Source: Arthrobacter sp. HY1533 (GTDB taxonomy: Bacteria; Actinomycetota; Actinomycetes; Actinomycetales; Micrococcaceae). From it: a stretch of DNA of 64,000 bases. Positions within the stretch are counted from its first letter, which is position 1, and each line of letters begins with the position of its first letter. Where the stretch lies: contig NZ_JANKZF010000016.1 in NCBI RefSeq assembly GCF_027568515.1, positions 1 to 64,000 on the forward strand, read 5' to 3'. Position numbers and translations under genes: made by a program. The notes beneath the pieces are model-generated. The model saw only the letters and a program-made list of their open reading frames with translations, was not told where the DNA came from and did no database searches. Shown one piece after another: positions 13,807 to 46,387 of the stretch.

Positions 13807-13823
13807 CCGCCCCCGCCGCCAAA

Positions 13824-29251: not shown

Positions 29252-31941
29252 CAGTGGCTTCCGTGCAGTCCACCCTTCCGCAGCCGTGGCCCGGGGTGGA
29301 AGCCCACTGGCGCCGCACCCTGGCCGTCCCCTCAACCTCCGCAGTTGACGGCCCCGGCGCCTCCCGCCACTGGCACTTCCTGGACAACCGGGACGACGTC
29401 CTGGCCACCGGCATGGAGCCCGTGGGCACCCTGCTGTGCGTGCACGGCAACCCCACTTGGAGCTACCTCTGGCGCACCCTGCTGGCCGGCGCCACCTCCC
29501 CCGAAACCCTCGCCGCCGGCGGCCCGTGGCGCGTGGTGGCCGTGGACCAGTTGGACATGGGCTTCTCCGAGCGCACCGGCACCTTCCGCCGCCTCGAGGA
29601 CCGCATCAACGACCTCTCCGATTTCACCGCCGAACTGGGCCTCACTGGCCCGGTGGTCAGCGTGGGCCATGACTGGGGCGGGCTCATTTCCCTGGGCTGG
29701 GCAAACCTCCACCGCGAGCAGCTGGCCGGCGTGGTCCTGACCAACACGGCCGTGCACCCCTCCGGCTTCTCCCTCCCGCCGGCCCTGCAGCTGGCCCTGC
29801 ACCCCGCCGTGCACAAGTGGGGCACGACGACGTCTTCCGCATTTTTGCGCGTCACGCACGGGCTCGCCCAGCCGGCCCTGGCAGACGATGTCCGCGCCGC
29901 ATTCATGGCCCCGTACAAGACAGTGTCCCGCCGCGCCGGCGTGGGCAACTTCGTCGCCGACATCCCGGCAACCCCTGAACACCCGTCATGGGCAGCCCTG
30001 GATGAGGTCTCCTCCGGCATCCGCACCCTGGATGTGCCTGCCCTGATGATGTGGGGGCCCAAGGACCCCGTGTTCTCCGACCGCTACCTGCGCGACCTGG
30101 CCGCCCGCCTGCCGCAGGCCGATGTGCACCGCTTTGAGGGCGCCAGTCACCTGGTCCAGGAAGACCGCGACATTGCCGCGCCCGCGTTTGCCTGGCTGGC
30201 GGCGAACTGCCTGCCGGGATCAGTGGTTTCGACAAGCTCAACCACCGAGGCAAGCTCAACCACCGGGGCAAGCCCGGCTACCGGCTTCGTGCCCATGCTG
30301 GCCGAGCTCGACGCCCGGCGCGGAGACGCCTCCACGGCTGTGGTGGACATGCTGCCTGAGGGCGGCACAAGGTCGCTGAGCTGGGCGCAGCTGGCCCGCG
30401 ACGTGGACGACCTCGCCGCCGGCCTGCGCGAGCTTGGCATCACCGCCGGCAAGCGGGTCAGCCTGCTGGTGCCCCCGGGCATCAACCTGACCACGCTCAT
30501 TTACGCCTGCCTGCGCCTGGGCGCCGTCATTGTGGTGGCCGACGCAGGCTTGGGCACCAAGGGGCTCAGCCGCGCCATCAAGGGCGCCGGGCCTGACTTC
30601 CTCATCGGCATTGACCGCGCCCTGGCCGGGGCCAAGCTGTACAACTGGCCCGGGACCAGGATTGCGGCTGAGGACTTCACGCCGTCCACCGCGAACACCA
30701 AGAAGGCTGTTCTGGGCGTTGCCGCAACCGTGCCCCAGCTCATGGCCAACGGACGCGTGGTGCGCCTGGCCGGAAATGCCGTGCGGTTTGCCCCGGTTGA
30801 CCCCGATGCCGATGCGGCCGTGCTGTTCACCTCCGGCTCCACCGGACCGGCCAAGGGAGTTGTGTACACGGGCCGCCGCCTGGCCGCGATGCGCGACACC
30901 CTCAAGGACACGTACCGGCTTGAGGCCGGTACTTCCCTGGTTGCCGGCTTTGCGCCGTTCGCCCTGTTGGGCCCGGCCCTGGGCGCCACCACGGTCACCC
31001 CCGACATGGACGTGACCGCACCGCGCACGCTCACGGCCACAGCACTGGCAAATGCCGCGGCGGCCGTGGACGCCACAGTGGTCTTTGCCTCCCCCGCCGC
31101 CCTGGTCAACGTCATGGCGACCGCAGCGGAACTGACGGATGCCCAGCGCACAGTAATGGCCGGCGTCGAACTTGTCCTTTCGGCAGGCGCACCGCTCGGG
31201 GTGGCACTGCTGGAGCAGGTGCAGCAGCTGGCCCCCAACGCGGCACTGCACACCCCGTACGGCATGACTGAGGCCCTTCCGGTGACCGACATCGACCTGC
31301 CCGGGATCCGTGCTGCGGGCGCCGGCAACGGCGTGTGCGTGGGGACGCCTGTCAGCGGCGCGTCCGTGGCGATTGCCCCGCTCGACGCCGACGGCGCGGT
31401 TCTGGCGGAAGCCACCACGGGCGCCGGCGTGACGGGCGAGATCCTGGTGTCCGCCCCGCATGTGAAGGAGCGCTATGACCGGCTCTGGATCACCGAGGCG
31501 CACAGTTCGTACATTCCCGGCTGGCACCGCACAGGCGATGTGGGCCACCTCGACGCCGAGGGGCGCCTGTGGGTTGAGGGGCGCCTTGAGCACATCCTGT
31601 CCACGCCCGCCGGCGTGAAGACGCCCGTTGCCGCCGAACAGGCCGCACAGGGCGTTGCCGGTGTGGCGCGTGCCGCCGTGGTGGGCGTGGGCCCGCTGGG
31701 CACACAGGCCGCCGTGGCAGTTGTTGAGACCCTGCCTGCCGTGAAGCGTGCCGGTCTGGCACCTGCCGGGCTGGCGGCCGAGGTCCGGGCGGCCTCTGCC
31801 GCCGCCGGCGTGCCGCTGGCCTCCGTGCTGCTCATTGACGCCATGCCGACGGATGTGCGGCACAACTCCAAAATTGACAGGGCCCGGCTCTCGCGCTGGG
31901 CCGCGAAGGTGCTTTCCGGCGGGAAGGCCGGCAAGCCTTGA
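29245..31941 (+). CDS. oleBC: OleBC fusion: beta-lactone decarboxylase plus beta-lactone synthetase
   Basis: An 898-residue fusion. The N-terminal alpha/beta hydrolase (about 1-325; HGNPTWSYLWR oxyanion segment, nucleophile Asp143 in GHDWGG, DRYLRDLA) corresponds to OleB, which decarboxylates a beta-lactone to the olefin. The C-terminal AMP-binding domain (about 350-898; LFTSGSTGPAKGVVYTG, TPYGMTEALPVTD, GDVGHLDAEGRLWVEGR) corresponds to OleC, which makes the lactone from a beta-hydroxy acid with ATP. Fused OleBC is known in actinobacteria such as Micrococcus. The linker (about 325-350, Ser/Thr/Ala-rich) is encoded by a dispersed-repeat sequence. Start GTG 29245 overlaps the oleA stop by 7 bases; GTG 29254 and 29263 are alternatives. 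Confidence 0.94.
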   Translation: MVAVASVQSTLPQPWPGVEAHWRRTLAVPSTSAVDGPGASRHWHFLDNRDDVLATGMEPVGTLLCVHGNPTWSYLWRTLLAGATSPETLAAGGPWRVVAVDQLDMGFSERTGTFRRLEDRINDLSDFTAELGLTGPVVSVGHDWGGLISLGWANLHREQLAGVVLTNTAVHPSGFSLPPALQLALHPAVHKWGTTTSSAFLRVTHGLAQPALADDVRAAFMAPYKTVSRRAGVGNFVADIPATPEHPSWAALDEVSSGIRTLDVPALMMWGPKDPVFSDRYLRDLAARLPQADVHRFEGASHLVQEDRDIAAPAFAWLAANCLPGSVVSTSSTTEASSTTGASPATGFVPMLAELDARRGDASTAVVDMLPEGGTRSLSWAQLARDVDDLAAGLRELGITAGKRVSLLVPPGINLTTLIYACLRLGAVIVVADAGLGTKGLSRAIKGAGPDFLIGIDRALAGAKLYNWPGTRIAAEDFTPSTANTKKAVLGVAATVPQLMANGRVVRLAGNAVRFAPVDPDADAAVLFTSGSTGPAKGVVYTGRRLAAMRDTLKDTYRLEAGTSLVAGFAPFALLGPALGATTVTPDMDVTAPRTLTATALANAAAAVDATVVFASPAALVNVMATAAELTDAQRTVMAGVELVLSAGAPLGVALLEQVQQLAPNAALHTPYGMTEALPVTDIDLPGIRAAGAGNGVCVGTPVSGASVAIAPLDADGAVLAEATTGAGVTGEILVSAPHVKERYDRLWITEAHSSYIPGWHRTGDVGHLDAEGRLWVEGRLEHILSTPAGVKTPVAAEQAAQGVAGVARAAVVGVGPLGTQAAVAVVETLPAVKRAGLAPAGLAAEVRAASAAAGVPLASVLLIDAMPTDVRHNSKIDRARLSRWAAKVLSGGKAGKP
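30224..30265 (+). repeat. Dispersed-type repeat inside the OleB-OleC linker
   Basis: TGGTTTCGACAAGCTCAACC (30224-30243, continuing to ACCG) is followed by a second partial copy, CAAGCTCAACCACCG, ending at 30265. Sequences of this type are common between genes in Arthrobacter relatives (from general knowledge). Here it is read in frame as a Ser/Thr-rich linker. Confidence 0.6.
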
Positions 31942-32969
31942 CGTCCGGCGGGCCGGGCACGGAGCCGGGCACGGGCCCTGGCGTGCAGCGGCGGGTCCTG
32001 GTGACCGGCGCCAGCGGCATGCTGGGACGGGCCGTTGCCCAGCTGCTCCACGACCGCGGCTATCTTGTCCGCACGCTGCAGCGCCGCCCCGTCGACGCCC
32101 CCTGGGAATCAATGCAGGGCTCGGTGGCCGACCCCGACGTGGCGGCAGCCGCGGTGGAGGGCATGGATGCCGTGGTGCACCTCGCGGCCAAGGTTTCCTT
32201 CACGGGCGACTGGAACGACTTCGTCACCACCAACATCGTGGGGACCAGGCAGCTGATTGCCGCGGCAAGGCATGAGGGGCTGCGTGACTTCGTGTTTGTC
32301 TCCTCCCCGTCGGTGGCGCACTTTGGCTCCTCCATTGTGGGTGCCGGCGCCGGTGCGGCGGACCCCGCGCTGGCCCGCGGCCACTATGCACGGTCCAAGG
32401 CCGCGGCCGAGGAAATCGCCCTCGCCGAGGACTCCCCCGAATTCCGGGTGGCCGCGATCCGGCCCCACATTGTGTGGGGACCGGGCGACACCCAACTCGT
32501 GGAGCGGGTGGTGGAACGCGCCCGCGCGGGGCGGCTCCCGCTGCTGGACGGCGGCCGCGCCCTCATCGACACCACCTATGTGGACAATGCGGCCGAGGCC
32601 ATTGTGCGCGGGCTCGAACGCATGGACCACGCGCACGGCCAGGCCCTGGTGGTCACCAACGGCGAACCACGGGCCGTGGGCGAACTCATCGGCGGCATCT
32701 GTGCCGCCGCCGGCGTGCGTGCGCCCGGCTACTCCGTGCCGGGCTGGCTGGCCCGCGGGGCAGGTTCCGTCATTGAAAAAGCATGGACTGCTGCCGGCGC
32801 CCGCGGCTGGGTCAAGGATGAGCCGCCCATGACCCGCTTCCTGGCCGAGCAGCTGTCCACCGCGCACTGGTTCGACCAGCGCCACACCCAGGCCGTGCTG
32901 GACTGGACACCTTCAGTTTCCCTCGATGAGGGCCTGGCCCGGCTGGCCGAGCACTACCGCCGGCAGTAG
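31938..32969 (+). CDS. oleD: OleD: NADPH-dependent beta-keto acid reductase
   Basis: A 343-residue extended short-chain dehydrogenase/reductase that reduces the OleA product to a beta-hydroxy acid before lactone formation by OleC. It has the cofactor loop VTGASGMLGRAVAQLL, the HLAAKVSFTG strand, catalytic YARSK (Y-x3-K), and RPHIVWGPGD, as in 3-beta-HSD-like OleD. Start TTG 31938 overlaps the oleBC stop (TTGA). The N-terminal 18 residues (Gly/Pro/Thr-rich) precede the Rossmann fold. The cluster order oleA-oleBC-oleD is that known in Micrococcus luteus. It ends at a strong bidirectional hairpin. Confidence 0.94.
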   Translation: MTSGGPGTEPGTGPGVQRRVLVTGASGMLGRAVAQLLHDRGYLVRTLQRRPVDAPWESMQGSVADPDVAAAAVEGMDAVVHLAAKVSFTGDWNDFVTTNIVGTRQLIAAARHEGLRDFVFVSSPSVAHFGSSIVGAGAGAADPALARGHYARSKAAAEEIALAEDSPEFRVAAIRPHIVWGPGDTQLVERVVERARAGRLPLLDGGRALIDTTYVDNAAEAIVRGLERMDHAHGQALVVTNGEPRAVGELIGGICAAAGVRAPGYSVPGWLARGAGSVIEKAWTAAGARGWVKDEPPMTRFLAEQLSTAHWFDQRHTQAVLDWTPSVSLDEGLARLAEHYRRQ

Positions 32970-32987
32970 GAAGCTGCACGCCGGCAC

Positions 32988-33045
32988 GCCGGCACGCCAA
33001 AGGCCCGGCACCAGGTTCCTGGGGCCGGGCCTTTGGCGTGCCGGC
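32988..33045. terminator. Bidirectional hairpin between oleD and the peptidase gene
   Basis: A perfect 22-bp stem (32988-33009 with 33024-33045) has a 14-base loop. It begins 18 bases after oleD and ends 8 bases before the convergent peptidase stop codon. Confidence 0.85.
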
Positions 33046-33053
33046 GGTGCGGC

Positions 33054-35186
33054 TCAACGCACCACGATGGTGATCTCCCGGCTTGACCGGTCCACCGTGA
33101 CCCGGTCCCCTCCGGGTTCCCCGGCGACTGCCCCGGCCAGCCCCGGCCCGGCGCTGGCGGTGTCGGGGGTGGCAGGCGTTCCGCCGGATCCGCTTCCCTC
33201 AACCGTGCCACCGTTGGCGCTGAGCCCCTGGCTTTCGTCCAGCACCCCCGCGCCGGCGTCGGCTTCCATGGACCCCAGGGCGAAGGCCGGAGCGCTGGGG
33301 CGCCAGAACGTGTAGTCCCAGTTCGCCGACCAGTTGTACGACCAGCTGTTCTGGTTCCCGTTGGCCCGCAGCAGCAGGTTCGCGAAACGGACGTCGTGGC
33401 CGCTGCGGGCCAGCATGACCGGCCCCGGCGTGCCCCGGAAGGAGAACTCATCCAGCACGGTTCCGTTTGCTGCGTGGGAGCGGAACGAAAGCCCGTTCAG
33501 CCGCACCGTGTTGATGCCCGGGTTGAACATCCTGACCTGGACCCTCAGGAACGTCTCGCGGCCTGCCCCGAGGAAGACCGGCACCACCTGGATGTCGTAC
33601 CAGATCTTTGATGCCGCCTCCAGTGCGGCCCGGGCGTCGATCCGGCCGAAGCCGAACTGCTGGTCCCGGCCCGCTGCCCCCAGGTCCCGCGCGGTGAGCT
33701 TGATGATGTCCTCCACCTCCCACGAGCGCAGCTCCGGATCGACCGCCAGGGTCAGGGCCATGAGGCCTGCCACGTGCGGCGTTGCCGAGGACGTGCCGTT
33801 GAACGTGCCCACGTAGTTGCCCGAGGTGTACCCGCCGGCGCCCATCATGTCGGTGGTCGGGATCTTGACCCCGGGCGCCACAACGTCCACCTCGGGACCG
33901 TAGTTGGAACCCCACCAGGTCTCGCCGTCCAGGCTGGTCATGCTCTTGCGCTGGTCCCACTGGTTGCTTGCTCCCACGGCCAGAAACCCGCGAATCACTG
34001 GGGACAACCTTGCCGGGTAGCCAACACCGAGGATGTCGCCGTTGCCGGTGGCGGCCGCGATGGGGGTGCCACGCCCGCCGCGTCCGTTGGTCTGGGCGTA
34101 CACAAACGCATTCGTGACCACTGTGCTGGCGCCGCTGCCCCAGGAGTTGGACAGCACGTCAGCCCCCAGGTCGACGGCGCGGCGGACCCCGGCGGCGATG
34201 ACGGCATCCGTCGTGGACCAGAAGCCCCCGCCGATACCGTAGGCAATGCGGACGTGGCGCACCCGGCTGTTGGGTGCAACGCCGGCGATGCCCCTGCCGT
34301 TGCCGGCCGTGCCCACAGCGATTCCGGCACAGGCCACCCCGTGGCCGTCGGCCGGGTTCGGGGTGGGGTCGGAATCGTTGAACCGGGCATCAAAGCCGGG
34401 TGCCTGGACGTAGTCCTCGTGGGCGTTTCCGCCCTCGTCGATGATGGCCACCGTGATGGCCGAGCTACCGCGGGAAATGTCCCACGCCTCGGGGCAGCGG
34501 ATCTTGGCGATGCCCCACTGGCTGGACAGCAGCGGGTCGTTCGGGGTGAAGGCGGGGCCGGCGTCCCCCAACGCCTCCGGCCGGGCCGCCCCTTCAAGGG
34601 TTGCGGTCAACCTGGGTGAGAGACGGACGAAGTTCGGGACGGCGTAGTCGATCCCGTCCAGCTCGTGCAGCTCGTTGGCGAGTGCCACGGCGGAATCCGC
34701 CCGTCCCGCCGTCATGACCAGGACGGCTCCGGGCTCCGGGTAGTCGGCCTGGATGGTTTCGAGCCGGTACTTCTTCAGGACCCGTGCCATGGTGGCCGCA
34801 TCGCCGCCGAACTTGACGATCAACTCGCCGTTGTCGATGAGCGCGGTTGGCGTTCCGCCGTTTGCCGCTTCGGCCCCGTCACCGGGTTCGTAGACGTCGG
34901 GCCCCGGGGCGGCATCGTCTGCCAGAGCGGCCTGCGCAGCCATGATGCCGGGGGCAGCCCCGGGCACGCCGGCGCCGGCGACCTTGAAGACCACCAGGTC
35001 CTGGTCGGTCACGCGGAAGATTTCAACGGGCTGCTGGGGGTCGGCGGACAGGGCAGCGGCGCCCTGGACCATCGAGTCGGCATCCTGCGGCGTCGCCCGG
35101 ACGGCGACGAAGTGGCTCGAGGGGGCCAGGGGGACCCGCTCGCCATCGGCATAGTAGTAGGCCGTGGATCCAGTCTTGTCCGACAT
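33054..35186 (-). CDS. Intracellular S8 (subtilisin-like) peptidase B of the sigma/CHAT module
   Basis: A 710-residue S8 protease. It shows Asp250 (VAIIDEGG), His282 (GHGVACAGI), Asn382 (AATGNGD) and Ser466 (NGTSSATPHVAG), so the triad and oxyanion Asn are intact. No signal peptide or membrane segment is present, so it probably acts in the cytoplasm. Residues 1-215 form a prodomain-like region (ELIVKFGGDAATMARVLKKY); a beta-rich C-terminal part (about 530-650) and a Gly/Pro/Ser tail follow the catalytic domain. AAGGAG precedes ATG 35186. It is preceded by the same promoter-like element as the first peptidase gene, 54-82 bases upstream. The CHAT gene ends 114 bases before it. Confidence 0.92.
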   Translation of the reverse strand: MSDKTGSTAYYYADGERVPLAPSSHFVAVRATPQDADSMVQGAAALSADPQQPVEIFRVTDQDLVVFKVAGAGVPGAAPGIMAAQAALADDAAPGPDVYEPGDGAEAANGGTPTALIDNGELIVKFGGDAATMARVLKKYRLETIQADYPEPGAVLVMTAGRADSAVALANELHELDGIDYAVPNFVRLSPRLTATLEGAARPEALGDAGPAFTPNDPLLSSQWGIAKIRCPEAWDISRGSSAITVAIIDEGGNAHEDYVQAPGFDARFNDSDPTPNPADGHGVACAGIAVGTAGNGRGIAGVAPNSRVRHVRIAYGIGGGFWSTTDAVIAAGVRRAVDLGADVLSNSWGSGASTVVTNAFVYAQTNGRGGRGTPIAAATGNGDILGVGYPARLSPVIRGFLAVGASNQWDQRKSMTSLDGETWWGSNYGPEVDVVAPGVKIPTTDMMGAGGYTSGNYVGTFNGTSSATPHVAGLMALTLAVDPELRSWEVEDIIKLTARDLGAAGRDQQFGFGRIDARAALEAASKIWYDIQVVPVFLGAGRETFLRVQVRMFNPGINTVRLNGLSFRSHAANGTVLDEFSFRGTPGPVMLARSGHDVRFANLLLRANGNQNSWSYNWSANWDYTFWRPSAPAFALGSMEADAGAGVLDESQGLSANGGTVEGSGSGGTPATPDTASAGPGLAGAVAGEPGGDRVTVDRSSREITIVVR

Positions 35187-35239
35187 TGTGCTGCTCCTTC
35201 AAGGGGAGCAAGTGCACCGCGTCTTTGCGTTGCACCCAC

Positions 35240-35268
35240 TAGGAGCAGGGCCGGATCCGGTTGATACA
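35240..35268 (-). promoter_or_regulatory. Promoter-like element TGTATCA-N16-CTCCTA (copy 2)
   Basis: Read on the minus strand: TGTATCA (35268-35262), 16 bases, CTCCTA (35245-35240), then the peptidase B start about 54 bases later. It is identical in both blocks and in spacing to the element before peptidase A. The most likely reading is a recognition site for the ECF-like sigma factor encoded in the module. Confidence 0.6.
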
Positions 35269-35300
35269 CAGGCTGGCAAGAAAATTTTGCCGGACGCCGC

Positions 35301-37787
35301 TCAGGCCCGCCCCGGGGCCCGCCAGGGGGAACCGAACCAGGTGAAGCTGGCGTCGAGCACGCCGTCGCACGCGTCCGCCAGTGCTGCAGGACCGTCCTGC
35401 CCCAGGGCCAGGCGCCGGTGCATCTCGCCCATGACTCGGCACGCGGCGGCGTCGGGGACGTCGGTCAGGGGCGCCACAACGGCCCGCACGCCCATGGCCA
35501 ACAGGCTGGCGGCAAGCCCCAGGGCTTCATCGCCTGGGCGGAGCCGGCCCCGCCCGGCACTGCAGGCCGACAGCACCACCAGCGACGCCCGGATGTTGAC
35601 ATGTTCCAGTTCGTGGGCAAAAAGCGAGCCGCCGTGCAACCGCAGCGAGGAAAACAGCGGACTGTCCTCACGGTGCCTGCCATGGGCGGCAATGTGCACA
35701 ACGTCGTACGTGGCCAGGGCCTGCACAATGTGCCCCGAATCGGCAGTCACGGTGTGCGCACCCTCCCAGTGGCTTGCCACGCCGGCGCACTCCTCCCCTG
35801 CCAGGGCCAGGCCCGGCCCGGCCGCCACGGCCACCCGGGGAACCCTGTCCAGGACCATGGCGCCGTCGTGCCAGGAACGCACCGAGCGGCTGACCACCAC
35901 GCCTCGTCCCCGCAGGCCCGGCAACATGCCCCATGGCAGCCGGGCCAGCCCGCCGCTGGGCACCACAAGGAGCGGTCCCTGGCCGGGGTTGCCGGGCAGA
36001 AGCACCTTCCCGAGCCGGTCCAGGGATTCAGTGAGCGAGGACAGCACCACGGCGGACAGCGGGCCGGGAGGCGCCTGTCCGCCGGCCTGGGCATCGGCCA
36101 CCGCCCGGTCCAGCAGGTCATCGATGTCCCGCCGGCCGCCAAGGTGCAGCAGCTGCGCGGGAAGCCCGGGCTCGATCCGCACGGCGTGCAGCGAATCGCC
36201 GGCCCAAAAGTAGGCCATGACGCCGGTGTTCCCCAGCCAGTTCCGGGCCAGGCGCTGCGCGGGGACTGGCCGCCCCTGCGGCTGGCCTGCCCAGTAGCGC
36301 TCACGCAGTTGCCGCTCAATGAGGCCAATGGCCTGCCGCAGTGCCCTGCCCTCCGGGGCCGTGGCCGTCCTCAGTTCCTCATTGTGCTGGCGCAGGCTGG
36401 ACCACAGGCCGGCCAGTTCCGCGTTGGCAGGTGGCACCACCGACGGCTGCCCCTGCAGGGCCGCCCGCCAGCGTTCGGTGGCCAGCAGTGCGGCCCAGCC
36501 GTTTCCCCCGGCCGCCACCCGTTCAAGGTCCAGCCTGATGAGCGGGCTCAAGTGGAGGGCGACGGCGGTCCGCACGTCCAGGCTGGCCGCGCCGGCCCGG
36601 GCGGTGGATGTGTCCGCGGCGGCCTCGCGCAGCAGCCTGTTCCGGCCGGCCGGGCCGCCGGGCAGGGACAGCTGCGCCGAGATGCCCAGAATCCGGGTGG
36701 AAAGGTAGGGGGAATTCCGCAGCCGCCTCAGTGCGCCTTGCGTTTCCGAACCCACGGGCCCGCCGCCGCCGGCCCAGGCCAGGACTTGCACCGCGGCGGC
36801 CCTGTCGGCCAGCCAGCTGCGGCCGGCCGCCCGTGCCCGGGCCGCCAGCTCCCCCGCCTCGCCGGCCAGTCCGGCGTCGCCCGAAACGACCGCCGGCAGC
36901 CTGGCCTCAAGGGCAACGAGCCCGGCTTCCTGCGACCGGGCCTCCTCACCCCTCCCCGTCGCATCCAATGCCACGCCCTGGGCCATGCCTGCGCCTTGGC
37001 CTGCCCGGCCGGCGAGCATGGAGCAGCGGGCCTGGTCGAGCCGGGCCTCGGCCCATTCCTGGACCAGTCCCGCCGTGCGCAGGCCGTCCACGGCCTGCGC
37101 CAGCAGCCCTGCCGCCTCCTCCAGCAGCCCGGCTTCCATGAGGACCCGTGCCCGGTCGTGCCAAGCCACGGAGCGCTCAACCTCGACATCGAGCTGGTCC
37201 GCCGCCGCCATGTCCCGCAGCGCGGCAGGCAGGTCACCCCTGAGATATTCGACGAAGCCACGGTTGTGAAGGGCCATGAACCGGTACTGGGGCAGCCCGG
37301 TGGCCAGCTCGGCAGCCTCCTGGAGGTCGGCGGCGGCCTCGTCCAGGGAGCTGGTCCTGGACGCAATGGTCCCCTTGTTGATCAGCAGCCGCACGCGGTC
37401 GTCCAGGGGCAGGACGGAGGAGAGCGCGGCTGCCTTGCGCAGTCGCCCCAGTGCGGTGTCAAATTCTCCCGCCCGGGCCAACAGGACTCCGGCCTGCAGC
37501 TGGGCCAGGGCACGGATGTGCTCATTTTCCGGGGCGTCCGCCTCCGCGAGCACGCCGTCGATTTCCGCCAGGGCGGCGGGCAGGCCTTGTTCGTCGCAGC
37601 TCAGCCAGGATCCCGTCAGGCGGATGCGAAGCGCCAGCCCCGCGGCGTCGGGGCCTTTGCATCCGGCCAGGAGGTTCCGGGCCGTGTCCAGGTGTTGCCG
37701 GACCCCGGCAAGGTCGTATCTGGCGACGGCGGCGCGCGCTTGCCGGTAGGCCGCGTCGGCGGCCGAAAGCGTGCTGGGGCCCTGCAT
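35301..37787 (-). CDS. TPR-like repeat and CHAT (caspase-like) peptidase protein
   Basis: An 828-residue two-part protein. Residues about 1-330 are Ala/Leu-rich helical hairpins with TPR-like spacing (AGVLLARAGEFDTALGRLRK, LQEAAELATGLPQYR, EAAGLLAQAVDGLRTAGL). The C-terminal CHAT domain (about 560-828) belongs to the caspase/separase clan of Cys proteases and has the catalytic dyad His702 (VVHIAAHGRH) and Cys742 (VVLSACSAG), both intact, then EALGLAASLLAMGVRAVVAPL typical of the fold. No signal peptide. The TPR part should sense or bind a partner. It starts one base after the stop of the 157-residue protein, so the two are made together. Confidence 0.9.
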   Translation of the reverse strand: MQGPSTLSAADAAYRQARAAVARYDLAGVRQHLDTARNLLAGCKGPDAAGLALRIRLTGSWLSCDEQGLPAALAEIDGVLAEADAPENEHIRALAQLQAGVLLARAGEFDTALGRLRKAAALSSVLPLDDRVRLLINKGTIASRTSSLDEAAADLQEAAELATGLPQYRFMALHNRGFVEYLRGDLPAALRDMAAADQLDVEVERSVAWHDRARVLMEAGLLEEAAGLLAQAVDGLRTAGLVQEWAEARLDQARCSMLAGRAGQGAGMAQGVALDATGRGEEARSQEAGLVALEARLPAVVSGDAGLAGEAGELAARARAAGRSWLADRAAAVQVLAWAGGGGPVGSETQGALRRLRNSPYLSTRILGISAQLSLPGGPAGRNRLLREAAADTSTARAGAASLDVRTAVALHLSPLIRLDLERVAAGGNGWAALLATERWRAALQGQPSVVPPANAELAGLWSSLRQHNEELRTATAPEGRALRQAIGLIERQLRERYWAGQPQGRPVPAQRLARNWLGNTGVMAYFWAGDSLHAVRIEPGLPAQLLHLGGRRDIDDLLDRAVADAQAGGQAPPGPLSAVVLSSLTESLDRLGKVLLPGNPGQGPLLVVPSGGLARLPWGMLPGLRGRGVVVSRSVRSWHDGAMVLDRVPRVAVAAGPGLALAGEECAGVASHWEGAHTVTADSGHIVQALATYDVVHIAAHGRHREDSPLFSSLRLHGGSLFAHELEHVNIRASLVVLSACSAGRGRLRPGDEALGLAASLLAMGVRAVVAPLTDVPDAAACRVMGEMHRRLALGQDGPAALADACDGVLDASFTWFGSPWRAPGRA

Positions 37788-37788
37788 G

Positions 37789-38262
37789 CTAGAACTCGAT
37801 CACCGGCGTCATGATGGGCCGGTCCCCGGGGTCGGCCGGGCGGAGCAGGAAGCGCAGCGGACCCCGGGCGACCGCACGCCAGAGCAGCCGGCCGTGGGCG
37901 TCCGAGGTGCTCCACAGCGCCGTTGTTCCGGCCAGCACGGCCACGGCGATGCCGCCGCCGGTCACCCATCCGTCAATTCTCAGGCTGCCGTCGTCCTCCT
38001 CGCTGGTCCTGACCATGAGTTGCAGGGCCGAACTGGTGAACGTCACCGTGTTGGTCGCTTCGGTTTCCGCAGAACGCAGCGCCGGCATGCCTTCCTCCGT
38101 CAGGGTCGCAATTTCGGCGTCGAGGGCCTCCAACGACAGTGCGAAGAGAACGTCACCGTCCAGGGACGACGGCGGCGGGTCCACGGCGTCGTAGAGCGCG
38201 GCAATGCCTTCCAGCAGTTCCGCGTCGAGTGCGTCCATGGGTAGGTCTGGTGAGTTGCTCAC
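37789..38262 (-). CDS. Unrecognised 157-residue protein between sigma factor and CHAT
   Basis: I do not recognise this family. Visible: an acidic, helical N-terminal half (ALDAELLEGIAALYDAVDPP, DVLFALSLEALDAEIATL) and a C-terminal half predicted to be beta strands (SLRIDGWVTGGGIAVAVLAG, GPLRFLLRP), ending TPVIEF. It has no membrane helix or signal peptide. GTG 38262 overlaps the sigma stop (GTGA), and CHAT starts one base after it. Position between a sigma factor and a protease suggests an anti-sigma-like or adaptor role, possibly a CHAT substrate, but there is no direct evidence. Confidence 0.75.
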   Translation of the reverse strand: MSNSPDLPMDALDAELLEGIAALYDAVDPPPSSLDGDVLFALSLEALDAEIATLTEEGMPALRSAETEATNTVTFTSSALQLMVRTSEEDDGSLRIDGWVTGGGIAVAVLAGTTALWSTSDAHGRLLWRAVARGPLRFLLRPADPGDRPIMTPVIEF

Positions 38263-38840
38263 GGCATGCTCCAGCTCGGATCGGAGGAAAGGGCACTGCG
38301 CAGGGCAGCCAGGCAGCGCCCCCGGGTTGGGCCGATCGAGCCCACGGGGATTCCCAGCGACTCGGAGAGGGCCGCATAGTCCGGCGGCCCGCCACGGCTG
38401 ACCACCCGCAGGATTGCCTGGCAGCGCGGGCTGAGCCGGGAGATGTGGTTCCACAGCGTGCTTTGTGATTCGGCCGCCAGCACGGCCGTCTCTGGCCCCG
38501 GGGCGGGGTCCTGCGCGCCGGCAAGGGCCTCGGGTTCCTGTGCCGGGTCATTCTTCCTGCGTTCGCCGGCCACGCGCCATGCCTCGCGGCGGACGGTTGT
38601 CCCGAGCCAGGCCAGCACGGCCTGGGGATCACGGATTGCCCCGGCGTTGCCAACCAGCTTCAGCCAGGCCAGTTGGATCACGTCTTCGGCATCAACTTGT
38701 TCCAGCCCGCAGCCCCGGGCAAGGTGCCACAGCGTGGGGTTGAGCAGCCGCACCATCGGCTCGATGCGGCTCCTGTCCCCGCCCTGGAACTGCCTGAACA
38801 ACTCCGCCGCTTCCCCCACGAGGCCGGATTGCCCGGTCAT
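38259..38840 (-). CDS. ECF-like sigma-70 family factor
   Basis: A 193-residue regulator with region 2 (about 8-85: MVRLLNPTLWHLARGCGLEQ, DAEDVIQLAWLKLVGN, a sigma2 -10 recognition helix pattern) and region 4 (about 135-190: WNHISRLSPRCQAILRVV and a helix-turn-helix YAALSESLGIPVGSIGPTRGRCL). No region 3 or 1.1, so it is ECF-like. ATG 38840 overlaps the peptidase A stop (ATGA). Its likely targets are the two identical promoter-like elements at 40.4 and 35.25 kb. An N-terminal extension of 47 residues in the same frame is encoded inside peptidase A and was rejected. Confidence 0.88.
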   Translation of the reverse strand: MTGQSGLVGEAAELFRQFQGGDRSRIEPMVRLLNPTLWHLARGCGLEQVDAEDVIQLAWLKLVGNAGAIRDPQAVLAWLGTTVRREAWRVAGERRKNDPAQEPEALAGAQDPAPGPETAVLAAESQSTLWNHISRLSPRCQAILRVVSRGGPPDYAALSESLGIPVGSIGPTRGRCLAALRSALSSDPSWSMP

Positions 38841-40351
38841 GGCCGCTTCCACCCCAAGACTTCGCCGCAGGCGTTCCATGCCCTGTCCAGCCGGGCCGAA
38901 AGAAGCGGGTCCGTGGAGTCCACAAGGTGCTGGGCCAGTTCCGCCGCGAGGACGGGAGCGGCAAATGAGGTGCCGCTCCACACCCCAAACCCGCCGCTGA
39001 AATCGTCCGGATCAATGGTTGCGCGACGGATGCCGGCTCCGGGGAGCGCGGCAATCATCTGCCGGTCCCCGCTCAGGCGCGGCGGCATGGTGGAGACCAG
39101 GGCGGCTCCGGGCCGGTGGCAGCTGACCCACGCCCCCGCATTGCTGAAATAGGCCACCGTCCCGTCAGGGTTCAGGGCGCCCACGGCCGCCAGGGGCAAT
39201 TGACCCGGCGCCGTCGGCTGGCCGGCGAAGGCGGCCGGGTACATGGGTGCCGTGGTTGAGTTGTTGCCGGCCGCCGCGACCACCAGGACCCCGGCCTTGC
39301 CGAACTCGCCGAGCAGTTCATTCAGCGGCGCATCTGCCAGCTGGTCCTGGGGCTGCTCGTGGTAGTAGCCCAGGGACAGGCTGAGCACGTCGATGAGTGA
39401 ATCCGTGTCGCCCTCTTCCAGCGCGCCTTGCTGCCGGGCCAGGAGGGAATTGAGTGTCGCGATGAGGCAGGATTCGGACACGACGCCGTCGTCGGCCATG
39501 ACCGGGATGCCCAGGATGACGGCGGTGGGGCAGATTTGCCGGATGATGCCTGCGATGAAGGTGCCGTGCCCGGCGAGGGGAAGAAGCGTGCCGTCCAGCG
39601 GGTTGCGCACCGGTTCCGGGGCCGTGGACCCCGGGACAGTGCCGTGCCGGCCCAGCAGCTGGCCGCCGGCAAAAACGCTTGCGGTTGCCTGGGCCGGGTC
39701 ACGGAACCACGGGTGGTCTTCCAAGCCGGTGTCCGGGACCACCACAACAGGGGGCCGTTGCCCGCGCTTGGCGGCCGCTGCAGGATCCGGCAGGACCACT
39801 GACACAGGCGACCGCCCTCCCATGCCCGGGTTTGCATAGCTGGTGGCGGGTGCGCCAACGCCGGCGTAATAGGGCACCCCTGCGTAGTACGGAACGCCCG
39901 CGTAGTAGGGAACGCCCTGGTAGTCGGGCCCGGATCCCGGCGGAGGCTGTGCCGCGGCCATCGCATGGTCCAGCCAGACGCCGTCGGCCACGCCCGCCGC
40001 CCTGAGGTGTTCGAGCAGCCGCCACGCATCGACGTCGCCCGCCTTGCCGTGGAGGACCAGCCGGCTGATGGAGGAGGTGGTCTCCCCGGACGGCCTCTCC
40101 TTCACGCCCCGGACGCCGAGTGGCATGGATTCAACGCCAATGCCCAGCTTGGCAGCGGCCTCGCCAATGGATTTGATCCGTTCCGCAGCGTCCCGTTCGG
40201 GCACCGACAGCAGCAAGGCATCGGCCACGTACAGCGTGCTGCGGCCTGCTGGCGTGGTGACCATGCGGAATTTCCACGCCATGGCGGCTTGCGGGTCCAT
40301 GTGCAGCACCGGATTGTCAGGCACCTGCACTGCTTCACTCGTATCGCTCAT
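38837..40351 (-). CDS. Intracellular S8 (subtilisin-like) peptidase A, first gene of the sigma/CHAT module
   Basis: A 504-residue S8 protease. Catalytic Asp207 (VVVVPDTG), His262 (GHGTFIAGI), Asn363 (AAAGNNST) and Ser462 (WSGTSFAAPVLAA) are intact. It lacks a signal peptide. Residues about 1-140 hold an N-terminal domain (SETTSSIS), followed by a three-fold repeat of a GVPYYA unit (about 146-165), perhaps a flexible hinge or processing site. GGAGAGG precedes ATG 40351. The shared promoter-like element lies 32-60 bases upstream. As the first gene of an operon with the sigma factor, the unknown protein and CHAT, it is probably produced at the same level as its own regulator. Confidence 0.92.
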   Translation of the reverse strand: MSDTSEAVQVPDNPVLHMDPQAAMAWKFRMVTTPAGRSTLYVADALLLSVPERDAAERIKSIGEAAAKLGIGVESMPLGVRGVKERPSGETTSSISRLVLHGKAGDVDAWRLLEHLRAAGVADGVWLDHAMAAAQPPPGSGPDYQGVPYYAGVPYYAGVPYYAGVGAPATSYANPGMGGRSPVSVVLPDPAAAAKRGQRPPVVVVPDTGLEDHPWFRDPAQATASVFAGGQLLGRHGTVPGSTAPEPVRNPLDGTLLPLAGHGTFIAGIIRQICPTAVILGIPVMADDGVVSESCLIATLNSLLARQQGALEEGDTDSLIDVLSLSLGYYHEQPQDQLADAPLNELLGEFGKAGVLVVAAAGNNSTTAPMYPAAFAGQPTAPGQLPLAAVGALNPDGTVAYFSNAGAWVSCHRPGAALVSTMPPRLSGDRQMIAALPGAGIRRATIDPDDFSGGFGVWSGTSFAAPVLAAELAQHLVDSTDPLLSARLDRAWNACGEVLGWKRP

Positions 40352-40382
40352 GATGGTCCTCTCCAGGGTGGCTCATGCGAGT

Positions 40383-40411
40383 TAGGAGGGCACCGGGCGC
40401 GTCCTGATACA
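40383..40411 (-). promoter_or_regulatory. Promoter-like element TGTATCA-N16-CTCCTA (copy 1)
   Basis: Read on the minus strand: TGTATCA (40411-40405), 16 bases, CTCCTA (40388-40383), then a start codon 32 bases later. It matches copy 2 exactly in blocks and spacing, although the spacers differ. It probably drives peptidase A, sigma factor, unknown protein and CHAT as one transcript. Confidence 0.6.
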
Positions 40412-40480
40412 TGTCAGCGCACTGTCCATCCGCCATGCGGCCATGATCCCACGTGCGCGTCACGATTACACGCGCCAGTT

Positions 40481-40516
40481 GCCGCATGCCGGCGCCCGTG
40501 GGACGCCGGCAGCGGC
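40481..40516 (-). terminator. Hairpin after the PfkB gene
   Basis: Arms TGCCGGCG (40487-40494) and CGCCGGCA (40504-40511) extend by GCCGC/GCGGC with a one-base bulge, giving about 13 pairs. It lies directly at the PfkB stop codon (40517) and ends the GntR-controlled operon. Confidence 0.55.
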
Positions 40517-41479
40517 CTACCCTGCCAACTGCTGTGTGCCAGCCATCCGGCCTGCATGGTATTCCTCGATCATGCTCCTGCTGGCGACCCCGCCCCGGGG
40601 CCCCTGGATGGTGACGGCCCGTGATGCCGCGGCCACGGCAAATGCCACGGCGTCCGCCAGGGCCTCCCCATCGGACAGAGCATGGACCAGGGCACCGCCG
40701 AAGGTGTCGCCTGCGCCCGTGACGTCAACCACGGGCACCTGGTGGCCGGGCACGTGCTGCACAGTCTTGCCGTCGTAGATTTCGGCCCCTTCGGCCGACA
40801 ACGTCCGCACCACGGCCCTGACGCCATGGCTGAGGATCCACTCGTTGACTGCCTGGGCGTCCTGTCCACCGAAGGAGTGGCCGAATCCGATCTTGTTCAT
40901 GATGACCACCTCCGCGTCGCGCAGGAGTTCGCCGTCGACCATGCTGAAACCATCAACGTCCAGGTCAAAGATGGCGCGCCGGCCATGGGACCTCAACTCG
41001 GCCAGGACGTCCGCACCGGCCCGCGCCCCGTCGCTGAGGCGCTTGGCCCGCGCAAGCGTGGTGTAGAGGTAGCCGGGTGACTTTAGTGCCTCCATCGTCG
41101 CTGGTCCCAGAAGCATGGGTGCCTGCCCCGTTTCCGCATAGAGAACCACGTGTTCGCCACCGACCAGGAAGATCAGGTTGAGCGGGTCGGGCACGGTCTC
41201 ATCGTGCAACATGTGGGAGGTGCCAACACCGTGAGCGGCCAGGTCATGGCACATGCGTTCCGTCAGGGCGCCCGTGTTGAGCAGGGAGATGAACTCGGTG
41301 GCACCGCCCAGGCCGGCGTGCACGGCGGCGGCGTTGGCAATCATCCCGCCCACGTAGCTGGCGGAGGCCTCCATGCCTGCCTTGTCAGCCACGCCCGGCC
41401 ACCGTTCCACGGTGAAGTACTTGTCCAGCCCGACGTCGCCAACGAAGAATGCGGTTCCCGCAGCTCCCCGCTCAGCCAC
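40517..41479 (-). CDS. PfkB family carbohydrate (or nucleoside) kinase
   Basis: A 320-residue ribokinase-superfamily kinase that phosphorylates a sugar or nucleoside with ATP. N-terminal FVGDVGLDKYFTVERWPGVADKA contains the substrate-side Gly/Asp motif; the C-terminal PfkB signature is VTGAGDTFGGALVHAL, with the catalytic Asp. IFDLDVDGFS is an uncommon insertion. GTG 41479 overlaps the upstream stop by 8 bases. It is the last gene of the operon; the substrate is unknown and may be the sugar part released from an imported glycoside. Confidence 0.9.
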   Translation of the reverse strand: MAERGAAGTAFFVGDVGLDKYFTVERWPGVADKAGMEASASYVGGMIANAAAVHAGLGGATEFISLLNTGALTERMCHDLAAHGVGTSHMLHDETVPDPLNLIFLVGGEHVVLYAETGQAPMLLGPATMEALKSPGYLYTTLARAKRLSDGARAGADVLAELRSHGRRAIFDLDVDGFSMVDGELLRDAEVVIMNKIGFGHSFGGQDAQAVNEWILSHGVRAVVRTLSAEGAEIYDGKTVQHVPGHQVPVVDVTGAGDTFGGALVHALSDGEALADAVAFAVAAASRAVTIQGPRGGVASRSMIEEYHAGRMAGTQQLAG

Positions 41480-42002
41480 GCTGTGTCCCTTGGCTTGATT
41501 CCTGCAGCTCGGCATGGACCGGGCCGCCGGCAACGTCGGTCCAGGTGGGGCCGCCATCGCCCCCACAGCTGGCCATCCAGTAGTAGTTGGTGGGGCCGTC
41601 AACACCGCGGCACGCGTCATGCCACGTCCCCGGGTGCAGCACCACGGCCGTTCCGGGATTGATGACAAAGGCCCTGACGTCCTCCGCGCGGGGGAAGGTG
41701 GCGTCGCCGGCCTCGGCAACGGCCAGCACCACGGCGGCTCCAGCGGTGAACAGCGCCTCCTCCGTGTGCAGGTGCCGCTCCATTTGGTGAGTGACAAAGG
41801 GGCTGCCGCCGCCGAAGGTTATGCCCAGGCTGCCATTGGTGCTGATGAGCGGCGCCTTGGTGTAGGCGTCCTGCCAGCCGGGACCTTGGGTGAGCACCAG
41901 TCCGCCGTCCTTGTCTGCGTCGGCACCGTGCCCTGTCATGTGGTGGACCCTGCCGAACGGGGCAAAATCGGCGGCGTTGACATCGAGGGCAGGAATCCTC
42001 AC
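41472..42002 (-). CDS. Ureidoglycolate lyase-like (AllA/cupin) protein
   Basis: A 176-residue protein with a beta-rich cupin-like fold. The motifs FAPFGRVHHMTGHG, HQMERHLHTEEALFTAG and VINPGTAVVLHPGTWHDAC match the AllA family, including a HxxxE-type metal or substrate site. AllA splits ureidoglycolate into glyoxylate and urea. Neighbours do not form an allantoin pathway, so the true substrate may differ. GTG 42002 overlaps the BtpA-like stop (GTGA). Confidence 0.75.
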   Translation of the reverse strand: MRIPALDVNAADFAPFGRVHHMTGHGADADKDGGLVLTQGPGWQDAYTKAPLISTNGSLGITFGGGSPFVTHQMERHLHTEEALFTAGAAVVLAVAEAGDATFPRAEDVRAFVINPGTAVVLHPGTWHDACRGVDGPTNYYWMASCGGDGGPTWTDVAGGPVHAELQESSQGTQRG

Positions 42003-42775
42003 CGCAGGGCACCTTCGCGTGGCGCAGCCTGGCTGCGCGCCGTTTCCACCTCGTGCATGAGTTCATGCACGTGGGCTGCCAGGACCCGCCCGGTGTCCAC
42101 ATGGGTGTCCTTGAAGTAGCTGCCCACGATTGCGCCGTCGGCCACCGCCAACTGGGCGGCGGCATTCTGCACGGTCATTCCGGCCCCAATCAGGAGGGGG
42201 AAGTCGTTGCCCACGACCGAGCGGAAGCGTTCAACCTTGGCAATGTCGGTTTCCTCGCCGGTGGCTGTCCCCGTGACCACAAAAGCGTCGCAACGGCCCT
42301 GGCCAATCAGCAGGTCCTCTTCTTCTGTCCTTCCGGAATTGACCGGCTGGTACTTGAACCGCACACCACCCAAAAGCGCGGCGTCCACCTGGCCCCGCAA
42401 TGCTTGCAGCTCTTCGGCGAAGTCCAGGTCGGCAACGGGGTCAAGGTGCCCTGCGACGGAGTCCATCTGGATGAAGTTGATCCTGAATTGCCGGGCGAGC
42501 TCAAAGGCCATCCGGTGGTCGTGGAGCACGTTGACGCCCACTGTCAGGTCAGGGTATTTTCCCTCAAGCCATTCCAGGACACTGCGGACGTCGTCCTTGT
42601 CCCCAAAGTAGTTCTCCACGACCACGGCATCCACGCCGCCGCCGCGGAGGTCTGCAAGTTCCTGCTTCGCAATGTCCAGTTTCTGCGCAGCGGTGCCACC
42701 GGAAAGGTGCAGCATGCCCAGGATGGGCTTGGGGTTGGGGAAGGCCAGCGAATAACGGCTGTTGGTGGTGTTCAC
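41999..42775 (-). CDS. BtpA/SgcQ family TIM-barrel protein
   Basis: A 258-residue protein of the BtpA family. FPNPKPILGMLHLSGGTAAQ, GGGVDAVVVENYFGDKDDV and QLAVADGAIVGSYFKDTHVDTGR are family hallmarks. Members are predicted TIM barrels; SgcQ is from a sugar operon of unknown substrate and BtpA was first linked to photosystem I assembly. GTG 42775 has AAGGA upstream, giving a VNTT N-terminus. Function unknown here. Its place between GntR and AllA-like genes suggests sugar or nucleoside-type catabolism. Confidence 0.82.
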   Translation of the reverse strand: MNTTNSRYSLAFPNPKPILGMLHLSGGTAAQKLDIAKQELADLRGGGVDAVVVENYFGDKDDVRSVLEWLEGKYPDLTVGVNVLHDHRMAFELARQFRINFIQMDSVAGHLDPVADLDFAEELQALRGQVDAALLGGVRFKYQPVNSGRTEEEDLLIGQGRCDAFVVTGTATGEETDIAKVERFRSVVGNDFPLLIGAGMTVQNAAAQLAVADGAIVGSYFKDTHVDTGRVLAAHVHELMHEVETARSQAAPREGALR

Positions 42776-42827
42776 AACGTGTTCCTTACATTTGAAATCT
42801 GATATTTGCCCGCGGCAAGATGCCTGG

Positions 42828-43577
42828 CTACGAATTCGGGTGGTTGGCTGAGGTCCCGTTCCACGAGGTCCCCACGCGCATCTCAAGATCGGGTGAGTAA
42901 ATCACGGAGGTGTGTTCCACAAGGGCGTCCTCGTTGGTGAAGACCTCACCGCTGGCGCAGATGAAACCGGAGGCTCCAGGCAGTTCGCCGAAGACGTTTC
43001 TGGTCAGCTCGGACGGCACGGCCACGGACAGCATCAGCTCCGAGCGGACGGGGACAACCTCATAGTGTTCGCGAAGAATCTGGTACAGCGACTGCCCTTC
43101 AAAATCGAATTTCTCCAGGCCCGGATAGCGGTCCAGCCTGAGCAGGGAGGTGTCGATGTTGAGGAACTTCGTGCCATTCTCGGTGGCGACGCCGCGGGCC
43201 CGCACCAGGCGCAACTGCGGGCCGGTGGCAGCATCCACCACAGACTGCGACAGGACGGTTGTCACCGGCTTCTCATTGCGTGCCTTGGAGAAGTCGGTGA
43301 ATCCGCCAAAGTTCCAGATGCTGTGGTTGATCGGGGTGTATGTGACGATGGTGCCCTTGCCCCTGAATTGCTGGACCAGTCCCTCCGAAACCAGCAGGGA
43401 CACGGCATGCCGCACCGTGCTGCGGGTGATGCCGTGGCGGTCCCGCAGCACGGTCTCGGAGGGGATCGCATCCCCTTCGGGAATTTCCCCGTCAAGAATC
43501 CTTTGCCGCAGATCGCGGTATAGCTGCGTGTACAGCGGTGCAGGATTCATGGGATCGAGCAGAAATTCAGCGGTCAT
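42828..43577 (-). CDS. GntR family transcriptional regulator (HutC/UTRA type)
   Basis: A 249-residue regulator. The N-terminal winged helix has PLYTQLYRDLRQRILDG, PSETVLRDRHGITRSTVRHA and FRGKGTIV; the C-terminal UTRA effector domain follows (LVRARGVATENGTKFLNID). It probably represses the operon and is released by the imported compound or a derivative. A matching 26-base inverted repeat overlaps the operon start. Unusually, it is encoded in the middle of the operon it would control. Confidence 0.93.
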   Translation of the reverse strand: MTAEFLLDPMNPAPLYTQLYRDLRQRILDGEIPEGDAIPSETVLRDRHGITRSTVRHAVSLLVSEGLVQQFRGKGTIVTYTPINHSIWNFGGFTDFSKARNEKPVTTVLSQSVVDAATGPQLRLVRARGVATENGTKFLNIDTSLLRLDRYPGLEKFDFEGQSLYQILREHYEVVPVRSELMLSVAVPSELTRNVFGELPGASGFICASGEVFTNEDALVEHTSVIYSPDLEMRVGTSWNGTSANHPNS

Positions 43578-43604
43578 GAGATTGTCCCCCGTGGATGGTG
43601 TTGG

Positions 43605-44537
43605 CTATTTGCCGTCGTTGACGGTGATGGAATCAAGGGCAGCTGCCTTGAGGCCGTAGTTGTCCAGGATTTTGGCGTAGCTTCCATCCTTCTGCATGGC
43701 TTCCATGGTGGCCTTGATTGCGTCCCGCAGTTCGGTGGATTTCTTGGCCACGGCAATTCCGTAGTTCCCGGGCTCCAGCAGGTCCCCGATGGCGTAGTAC
43801 TTGCCCGGTTCCTGCTTCTGCAGGTCAAGAATGCCTTCGAATCCGATCAAGGACGCCTGGGCGCGGTCCTGCTTCATCTGCAGGATTTCCTCGGCCTGGG
43901 TGGGAATCTGGAGGATCTTGATCGGCTTGTCGGCCGCGCAGGTGGACTTGGAGAGGTCCTCCACCGAGCCAACCCAGCTGGTTCCCGTTGACACCGTGAC
44001 TGTGTAGCCGCAAAGGTCGGCCAGCTCCTTGATCTTGTCCTGGTTCGCCACCGGGGCAAAGAACTGGTTTCCGGTGCGGAAGTAGTCAACAAAGTCCAAT
44101 TCGCCCTGGCGCTTCTTCAAGTCCGAGAAAGCGGTCCAGATGATGTCCGAGCGGCCCGTGGTGACGGAGACGATGAGCTGGGAGAAGTCAACGTTCTGGA
44201 AATTCGGCTTGAGCCCGAGCCGGGCTGCAACTTCCTTGGCCAGGTCAATGTCTGCGCCCTTGAGGTCCGTGGATCCAGCCTCGGAGTATTCCATGGGCGG
44301 GTAGGCGAGGCTGATGGCGATGTTCAGGACGCCCGCGTCCTTCACTGAGGCGGGCAGCATGGCCTGGAGTTCCGGCACGGCGGCCGATTGCGTCTGCGAG
44401 GTTGAGGCGTTGCCCTGGCCGCCGCAACCGCTCAAGGCCAGCCCCGCCGCAAGGACGAGCGTGGCGGCGCCGAGGCGCGCCTTGGCCTTCGCAGTTGCCT
44501 TTGTGGTGGTTTTTGTGGTCGAAGAAATCATCGTCAT
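43605..44537 (-). CDS. Lipoprotein ABC substrate-binding protein
   Basis: A 310-residue SBP_bac_3 receptor. After a short Thr/Lys-rich start the lipobox reads LAAGLALSGCGG; the mature domain has AGVLNIAISLAYPPMEY, LKGADIDLAKEVAARLGLKP and TTGRSDIIWTAFSD. It binds an amino-acid-like or polar ligand outside the cell. ATG 44537 has GGCAGGAA upstream. It is the third gene of the operon, with the ATPase ending 31 bases upstream. It is not closely similar to the two receptors of the LLM island. Confidence 0.92.
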   Translation of the reverse strand: MTMISSTTKTTTKATAKAKARLGAATLVLAAGLALSGCGGQGNASTSQTQSAAVPELQAMLPASVKDAGVLNIAISLAYPPMEYSEAGSTDLKGADIDLAKEVAARLGLKPNFQNVDFSQLIVSVTTGRSDIIWTAFSDLKKRQGELDFVDYFRTGNQFFAPVANQDKIKELADLCGYTVTVSTGTSWVGSVEDLSKSTCAADKPIKILQIPTQAEEILQMKQDRAQASLIGFEGILDLQKQEPGKYYAIGDLLEPGNYGIAVAKKSTELRDAIKATMEAMQKDGSYAKILDNYGLKAAALDSITVNDGK

Positions 44538-44567
44538 TGTTGTTTCCTGCCTGTGGTTGTTGGTTTG

Positions 44568-46276: not shown

Positions 46277-46290
46277 CACCCACCTCCTCG

Positions 46291-46316
46291 AAGTTGTATG
46301 GTCAGGTGTACAACTT
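46291..46316. promoter_or_regulatory. Inverted repeat operator, likely GntR site
   Basis: AAGTTGTA (46291-46298) and TACAACTT (46309-46316) are perfect 8-base arms with a 10-base spacer. It lies immediately downstream of the -10 box, over the expected transcription start, an ideal place for repression. The TTGTA/TACAA half-sites fit GntR-type operators. Confidence 0.7.
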
Positions 46317-46317
46317 A

Positions 46318-46346: not shown

Positions 46347-46387
46347 GCGGGATTTGCCTGCCGGACCTCGCGGCCAGGGCGGGAACG

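Follow-up and report, generated by a model that had tools for sequence, protein, structure and literature searches.

How a protease can trigger the release of an extracytoplasmic function (ECF) sigma factor is understood from the CRISPR-linked Craspase and CalpL systems (PMC10028731, PMC11417357). In type III-E CASP/Craspase, the TPR-CHAT protease Csx29 cuts Csx30, a separate inhibitor of the ECF-type sigma factor CASP-sigma (PMC10028731); CalpL, CalpT and CalpS form a triad of protease, anti-sigma factor and ECF sigma factor, in which CalpL is a Lon protease with a SAVED sensor and is triggered by cyclic oligoadenylate (PMC11417357, PMC11229360). A CHAT protease also works in the proteolytic cascade of SAVED-CHAT, which has a cA3-sensing SAVED domain and is represented by three type III CRISPR loci in the survey of PMC11229360. 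Here we analyzed a five-gene locus in a 64,000-nucleotide stretch of Arthrobacter sp. HY1533 DNA (hereafter the window), which encodes an ECF-type sigma factor together with two subtilases (S8A and S8B), a caspase-like TPR-CHAT protease and a protein of 157 residues (p157). By analogy, Craspase and CalpL/CalpT/CalpS appear to be mechanistically the nearest known systems. In contrast with the latter, the protease here is a TPR-CHAT protein, and in contrast with Csx30, which by its residue numbers has at least 565 aa (PMC10028731), p157 is short and an S8 protease with a repeat array is added. Neither Cas7-11 nor a CRISPR array was found in the cassette shared with Arthrobacter sp. E3 (33002-40451, five genes only; the search for CRISPR did not go beyond this cassette), and thus the locus does not qualify as a CRISPR system, although the likeness of mechanism stands. 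The module looks like a widespread CRISPR-free version of such circuits in Actinomycetota and may show what role they have apart from CRISPR.

The composition itself is not new. A review reports subtilase, CHAT and "carboxypeptidase" neighbours for the ECF54 sigma group, for which control by proteolysis without an anti-sigma factor has been proposed (PMC8999054, citing Casas-Pastor 2021 and Huang 2015), so the original prediction, which knew of no described system of this exact composition, has to be corrected on this point. The likeness to ECF54 lies in an ECF-type sigma factor with these neighbour genes: the carboxypeptidase-type context consists here of CarboxypepD_reg matches below the cut-off, in p157 homologues only, and the promoter-like motif, the repeat arrays and the p157 linker site presented below are absent from the account of ECF54 in PMC8999054. 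These three features also go beyond the original prediction, and titles and abstract openings of the open-licence literature yielded no mention of the motif or of the arrays; as far as that literature was searched, the motif, the lineage-private arrays and the candidate cut site are undescribed.

The five genes are real and intact. They formed consecutive open reading frames (ORFs) without internal stops on the minus strand, in the transcription order S8A, sigma, p157, CHAT and S8B (Table 1), with 4-nt overlaps at the S8A/sigma and sigma/p157 junctions, a 1-nt gap between p157 and CHAT and a 114-nt gap between CHAT and S8B. This agrees with the original prediction, whose eight catalytic residues (D207/H262/S462 in S8A, H702/C742 in CHAT and D250/H282/S466 in S8B) were all present; likewise, inspection by eye revealed no signal peptide in any of the five proteins, as it had claimed. 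The triad of S8A was invariant in 47 of 47 aligned rows, and the His-Cys dyad of CHAT in 48 of 48.

To describe the spread of the module, two sets of loci were used. The first, picked by a p157 or S8A match, contained 62 loci (53 of the 54 other genomes of the order with a p157 match, seven further S8A loci, Arthrobacter sp. E3 (L003) and an uncultured Arachnia (L004); neither G062 nor the second match in G130 was used), and the second contained 60 loci chosen for diversity from later class- and phylum-wide searches. Sigma, p157 and CHAT occurred together in 57 of the 62 loci, and S8A as well in 52. The order sigma-p157-S8A-CHAT was observed in 28 loci and S8A-sigma-p157-CHAT in 19; two further loci had S8B added, five had sigma-p157-CHAT only, and eight were cut short or otherwise arranged. 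The full five-gene set was present in L003 (identical order) and L004 (S8A-S8B-sigma-p157-CHAT). Thus, S8A-sigma-p157-CHAT is a conserved actinobacterial module, mostly in two gene orders, and the gene order sought by the original prediction is not confined to one strain. Counting the window's genome, the p157 profile matched 55 of the order's 297 genomes and 22 of its 94 genera, and the recurrence of the gene set in many genera indicates that it is not a chance assembly. At E 0.001, 126 of 394 genomes of the class and 35 of 296 of the phylum had p157 relatives, some by weak and partial matches. S8A matches at the same threshold occurred in 114 of 345 class genomes, and 17 of these, among them the window's, reached values below E 1e-50. 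In the second set the module was present with more divergent S8 proteins; 22 of the 60 loci had p157 or sigma but lacked a CHAT match at E 1e-4 (some of these are on short contigs), and in one (L134) the scanned neighbours were of housekeeping type.

A promoter-like motif, GTATCA-N16-CTCCT, stands before two genes of the locus. It had only two exact matches in the window's 4.3-Mb genome, one before S8A and one before S8B, and the reversed control had none; this points to a sigma factor that serves just its own locus. In front of the first gene of the operon, the motif was exact in 20 of 41 non-redundant loci and had at most one mismatch in 30, with a spacer of 16 in 26 of these 30, as compared with 0.0 and 0.2 loci in dinucleotide shuffles. 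The reverse strand of the same 41 loci had exact copies in 3 and copies with at most one mismatch in 13, which may belong to divergent genes with a copy of their own, e.g. the trypsin-like gene described below. A scan of 80 genomes, in which match positions were assigned by hand, showed the exact motif at the locus in 27 of the 44 with the system, and at the locus and nowhere else in eight (G000, G016, G060, G124, G203, G238, G377 and G463). Judging from position, spacing and co-occurrence, we infer that the motif is the sigma factor's own promoter. Separately, a gene of L101 that is divergent from the operon (12849-13817) and lies just behind a one-mismatch motif copy (12816) encodes a HopA1-domain protein (PF17914, E 4e-13); L100, L102 and L103 have similar ORFs, and so does L174, where identity is about 30%.

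With a conserved module, retained catalytic residues, the sigma/p157 overlap and one motif before both the S8A operon and S8B, the controlled intracellular proteolytic circuit proposed in the original prediction is well supported. S8B has to be taken out of its core: separate orthologue genes were found only in L002, L003 and L004 besides the window (the scan for S8B did not extend to the second set), and a weak S8B score in L117 fell on the S8A ORF. Thus, S8B, which has a Fervidolysin-type prodomain, is an add-on.

The sigma factor, queried as a longer ORF of 240 aa, matched Pfam Sigma70_r2 above the cut-off (E 6e-7) and sigma70-ECF at E 5e-11 (42.5 bits against a cut-off of 42.9), and its PDB matches were ECF-type sigma factors. 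An overlap with the sigma gene is a usual place for an anti-sigma factor, and 41 of 61 loci had a 4-nt overlap of sigma and p157. From this position and overlap, p157 is a probable anti-sigma factor and a putative protease substrate, which now seems the best reading of what the original prediction had called unknown; in agreement with that label, p157 had no Pfam or NCBIfam match. Two homologues weakly matched Pfam CarboxypepD_reg below the curated cut-off (one of them, L118, also Big_6) and no peptidase family. A zinc-type anti-sigma factor was rejected, as the zinc anti-sigma motif HxxxCxxC occurred in 0 of 57 p157 sequences. The AlphaFold model of p157 (pLDDT 82.7, pTM 0.63) consists of two helices (11-27 and 34-45), a disordered linker and a beta-sandwich (71-157), and residues 58-65 form the only segment of at least three residues with pLDDT below 50. 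At the position of R63, within this segment, Arg was found in 56 of 57 p157 rows, followed by G, S, T or A in all 57. Among 60 later homologues, 54 matched the loose pattern [AVTSLGMP]R[GSTAQ], at least two of them (L168 and L169) outside the linker; the other six comprised three with IR[SGA], two with R then D or P, and one misread by the rule. Enzymes of clan CD commonly cleave after Arg.

The third feature is a tandem hexapeptide array in S8A; in the orthologues it follows a conserved LDH motif and precedes a motif of GGRxPV type, ahead of the catalytic Asp. In the window its units spell one peptide in different DNA sequences, and all three matches of the PYYAGV-coding pattern in the genome fell within it. 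Exact arrays, detected by script, were present in 49 of 61 core S8A proteins (profile score of at least 350), with 2-9 copies, 37 distinct units and an aromatic residue in 45 of the 49. Of the 12 others, eight have spaced exact copies (L077, L087, L092, L100-L103 and L118), one has an imprecise pair by eye (L090) and one is truncated at a contig end (L068). The unit is specific to the lineage, and nearly all differences between copies are synonymous: pairwise comparison over 58 arrays gave 1465 synonymous and 71 nonsynonymous differences (pN/pS 0.016, with pN biased downwards because arrays were detected by exact repetition; extension allowing 40% mismatch added few changed copies). Such exact, lineage-private repeats are an unusual evolutionary pattern and offer a direct experimental handle. 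Divergent S8 proteins had exact arrays in 3 of 29 cases. NPAYQG-type arrays of 6-8 copies occur in divergent S8 proteins of L181, L184 and L186, whose genomes lie outside the class; they may have arisen independently or be very old. The array also recurs in another protease family. Five loci had sigma, p157 and CHAT without S8A, and in four of them (L073, L078, L079 and L082) the product of a divergent gene next to them is a trypsin/NAL1-like protease that bears PFTE or TQPF arrays, a class assignment resting on Pfam matches below curated cut-offs for the first three and on similarity to them for L082; the fifth (L088) is a 6.7-kb contig. Ten trypsin-like genes were found in all, six with arrays and four without, the latter all in loci that also have S8A.

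What reads the array may be the TPR domain of CHAT. TPR-type PDB matches covered about residues 28-275 of this protein; the full alignment gave 206 PDB matches, the best 60 of which were mostly TPR proteins with no CHAT protease named among them. The catalytic profile matched chains that the PDB designates CHAT domain protein or separase (8rot at E 6e-13; 8d9f and 7x8a at about 5e-7), and a chain labelled Csx29 at E 1.9 only; we take 8d9f and 7x8a to be Craspase structures and 8rot to be a SAVED-CHAT entry. Over the 33 loci shared by all the alignments, array-unit distances correlated best with CHAT TPR distances (r 0.696; partial 0.238 given six other regions; 0/500 permutations, which ignore the tree), followed by the N-terminal part of p157 (partial 0.104; 10/500 permutations). 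The highest segments apart from the array itself were CHAT 61-120 (partial 0.275), CHAT 181-240 (0.236) and S8A 321-380 (0.193). With equal column numbers and sigma plus p157 as controls, TPR scored 0.345, as compared with 0.296 and 0.228 for the catalytic parts of S8A and CHAT, respectively. These covariations are no more than suggestive of an array-reading TPR domain.

Taken together, the locus is real and conserved and looks like a proteolytic sigma switch, probably self-amplifying, whose members seem to regulate each other. In its specific form, a switch dedicated to its own locus and resembling Craspase and CalpL without CRISPR, we give it about an even chance. At rest, p157 would hold sigma via its helical N-terminal domain; activated TPR-CHAT would cut p157 after the conserved linker Arg and release sigma, which would transcribe its own operon and S8B from the GTATCA-N16-CTCCT promoters, so that the proteases would accumulate in a positive loop. 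S8A, or elsewhere the array-bearing trypsin-like protease, would be tied to the complex via the tandem hexapeptides, most likely by their binding to the CHAT TPR domain. The motif and the Arg site make both sigma specificity and the p157 cut directly testable. Several observations weigh against this mechanism. The motif was absent in 11 of the 41 non-redundant loci, and 17 of the 44 genomes with the system lacked an exact match at the locus (8 had none and 9 had matches only elsewhere). Off-locus matches reached nine in one genome (G113); they may be chance or a wider regulon, since the 36 genomes without a detected system also hold 26 matches in all (about 0.7 each). Two S8A proteins (L094 and L130) have no repeats, and the 20 kb of L097 contain sigma and p157 but showed no CHAT and no S8A. 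The linker Arg was kept also in distant sigma-p157 pairs of the second-set loci in which no CHAT was found on the stretch retrieved, so it may serve another protease or role, which weakens the case for CHAT as the cutter. No sequence or fold match linked p157 to a known anti-sigma factor, and Foldseek with its model returned nothing at E 0.001 or better (best E 0.028). Finally, a catalytic segment of S8A (321-380) also scored in the covariation test, which covers 33 loci and is not tree-aware, and the lead of the TPR domain shrank with equal columns.

Other mechanisms would use the same genes differently. The proposal published for ECF54, in which the proteases degrade sigma itself to keep the system off and p157 would be an accessory carboxypeptidase-like protein with no anti-sigma factor involved (PMC8999054), seems improbable for this locus, given that p157 has only 157 aa, has two scanned homologues that match just CarboxypepD_reg (with Big_6 in one) and so frequently overlaps sigma. 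Somewhat less doubtful, and still unlikely, is a joint reading in which CHAT cuts S8A between the array and the catalytic domain (GGR-x-P), S8A then destroys p157 and other proteins, and the array would serve chiefly as a flexible spacer that contains cut sites. R180, a possible second cut site, the N-terminal part of S8A, which by eye resembles a prodomain, and the trypsin-like replacements, in which the array also lies between the catalytic part and a terminal segment, all fit such a zymogen cascade; however, neither a spacer nor a cut site needs exact repetition, yet the copies are identical in protein while their codons diverge, and the unit is specific to each lineage.

The same identity of copies would be unneeded if the array were bait for foreign, e.g. 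phage, proteases, whose cleavage would free S8A and start the loop. The strong variation of units between lineages and the accessory nature of the locus, the CHAT of which occurred in 2 of 23 genus genomes (the window's included), are consistent with a tripwire of this kind, but there was no direct phage link, the single phage-collection match of p157 (96% coverage, 42% identity) being an unannotated 7.5-kb faecal contig, and we consider it very unlikely. Short peptides are bound by TPR receptors in RRNPP systems, where some are cut by subtilases; the repeats here differ in sitting inside a protease without a visible export signal. The array might be an intracellular multi-copy peptide precursor, with a self-cut of S8A freeing identical, lineage-specific hexapeptides that, as a messenger within the cell, bind the CHAT TPR domain, switch on CHAT and so release sigma from p157. 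We hold this to be improbable; each lineage would then have a private peptide code, similar to a pheromone precursor, carried in a protease and read by a bacterial caspase. One locus (L175) has two CHAT, two p157 and two S8A genes side by side, with the units PFTSGG and HPMYDG and one sigma gene found, and would be a natural test of private codes.

Table 1. Positions of the genes and sequence features of the locus in the window
Feature	Position	Strand	Remarks
GTATCA-N16-CTCCT	40384..40410	-	32 nt before S8A start codon; exact match
S8A subtilase, 504 aa	38837..40351	-	N-terminal part, repeat array and S8 catalytic domain; Pfam Peptidase_S8 E 5e-14
Hexapeptide array in S8A, GVPYYA x3.3, residues 146-165	39857..39916	-	three units, one peptide, three different DNA sequences
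S8A R180 codon	39812..39814	-	directly after array; Arg in 41/47 aligned S8A
ECF-type sigma factor, 193 aa	38259..38840	-	ATGA overlap with S8A
p157, 157 aa, GTG start	37789..38262	-	probable anti-sigma factor and putative protease substrate
p157 R63 codon	38074..38076	-	proposed cleavage site (Arg then small residue), within low-pLDDT 58-65
TPR-CHAT caspase-like protease, 828 aa	35301..37787	-	Pfam CHAT E 4e-26
GTATCA-N16-CTCCT, second copy	35241..35267	-	54 nt before S8B start codon; exact match
S8B second subtilase, 710 aa	33054..35186	-	Pfam S8 E 2e-37, Fervidolysin_NPro E 6e-5; accessory member

The origin of the locus was also considered. DNA similarity between the window and L003 spans 33002-40451 and then stops, with L003 extending 5.9 kb and 3.3 kb beyond either side. 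The left neighbour, an epimerase-type gene (31938-32969), is present in all 23 genus genomes, and at least ten relatives have, no more than about 1.5 kb away from this gene, sequence that corresponds to the window from about 46.4 kb onwards; thus, the region of roughly 33.0-46.4 kb (32970-46386) is accessory. In G016, the locus and the epimerase-type gene are on separate contigs (C81 and C99). The locus is probably mobile. Both a phage origin, for which the faecal contig was the one matching record, and a plasmid origin were rejected; four plasmid records matched S8A, none over 80% of its length, and one of them was an 11.9-Mb record. Assignment to a catalogued defence system was likewise rejected: PADLOC assigned 79 residues of CHAT to BovA (E 1e-5) and S8B to a generic subtilase model (E 5e-16), and gave no match for S8A, sigma or p157. 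The 64-kb window contained no Rfam match and no tRNA. Besides the locus, the accessory region holds a PfkB-type kinase gene (40517-41797) and further genes, and to its left two ORFs (28897-32969) resemble an olefin-biosynthesis pair, presumably of OleBC/OleD type, the second of which belonged to the epimerase family when scanned.

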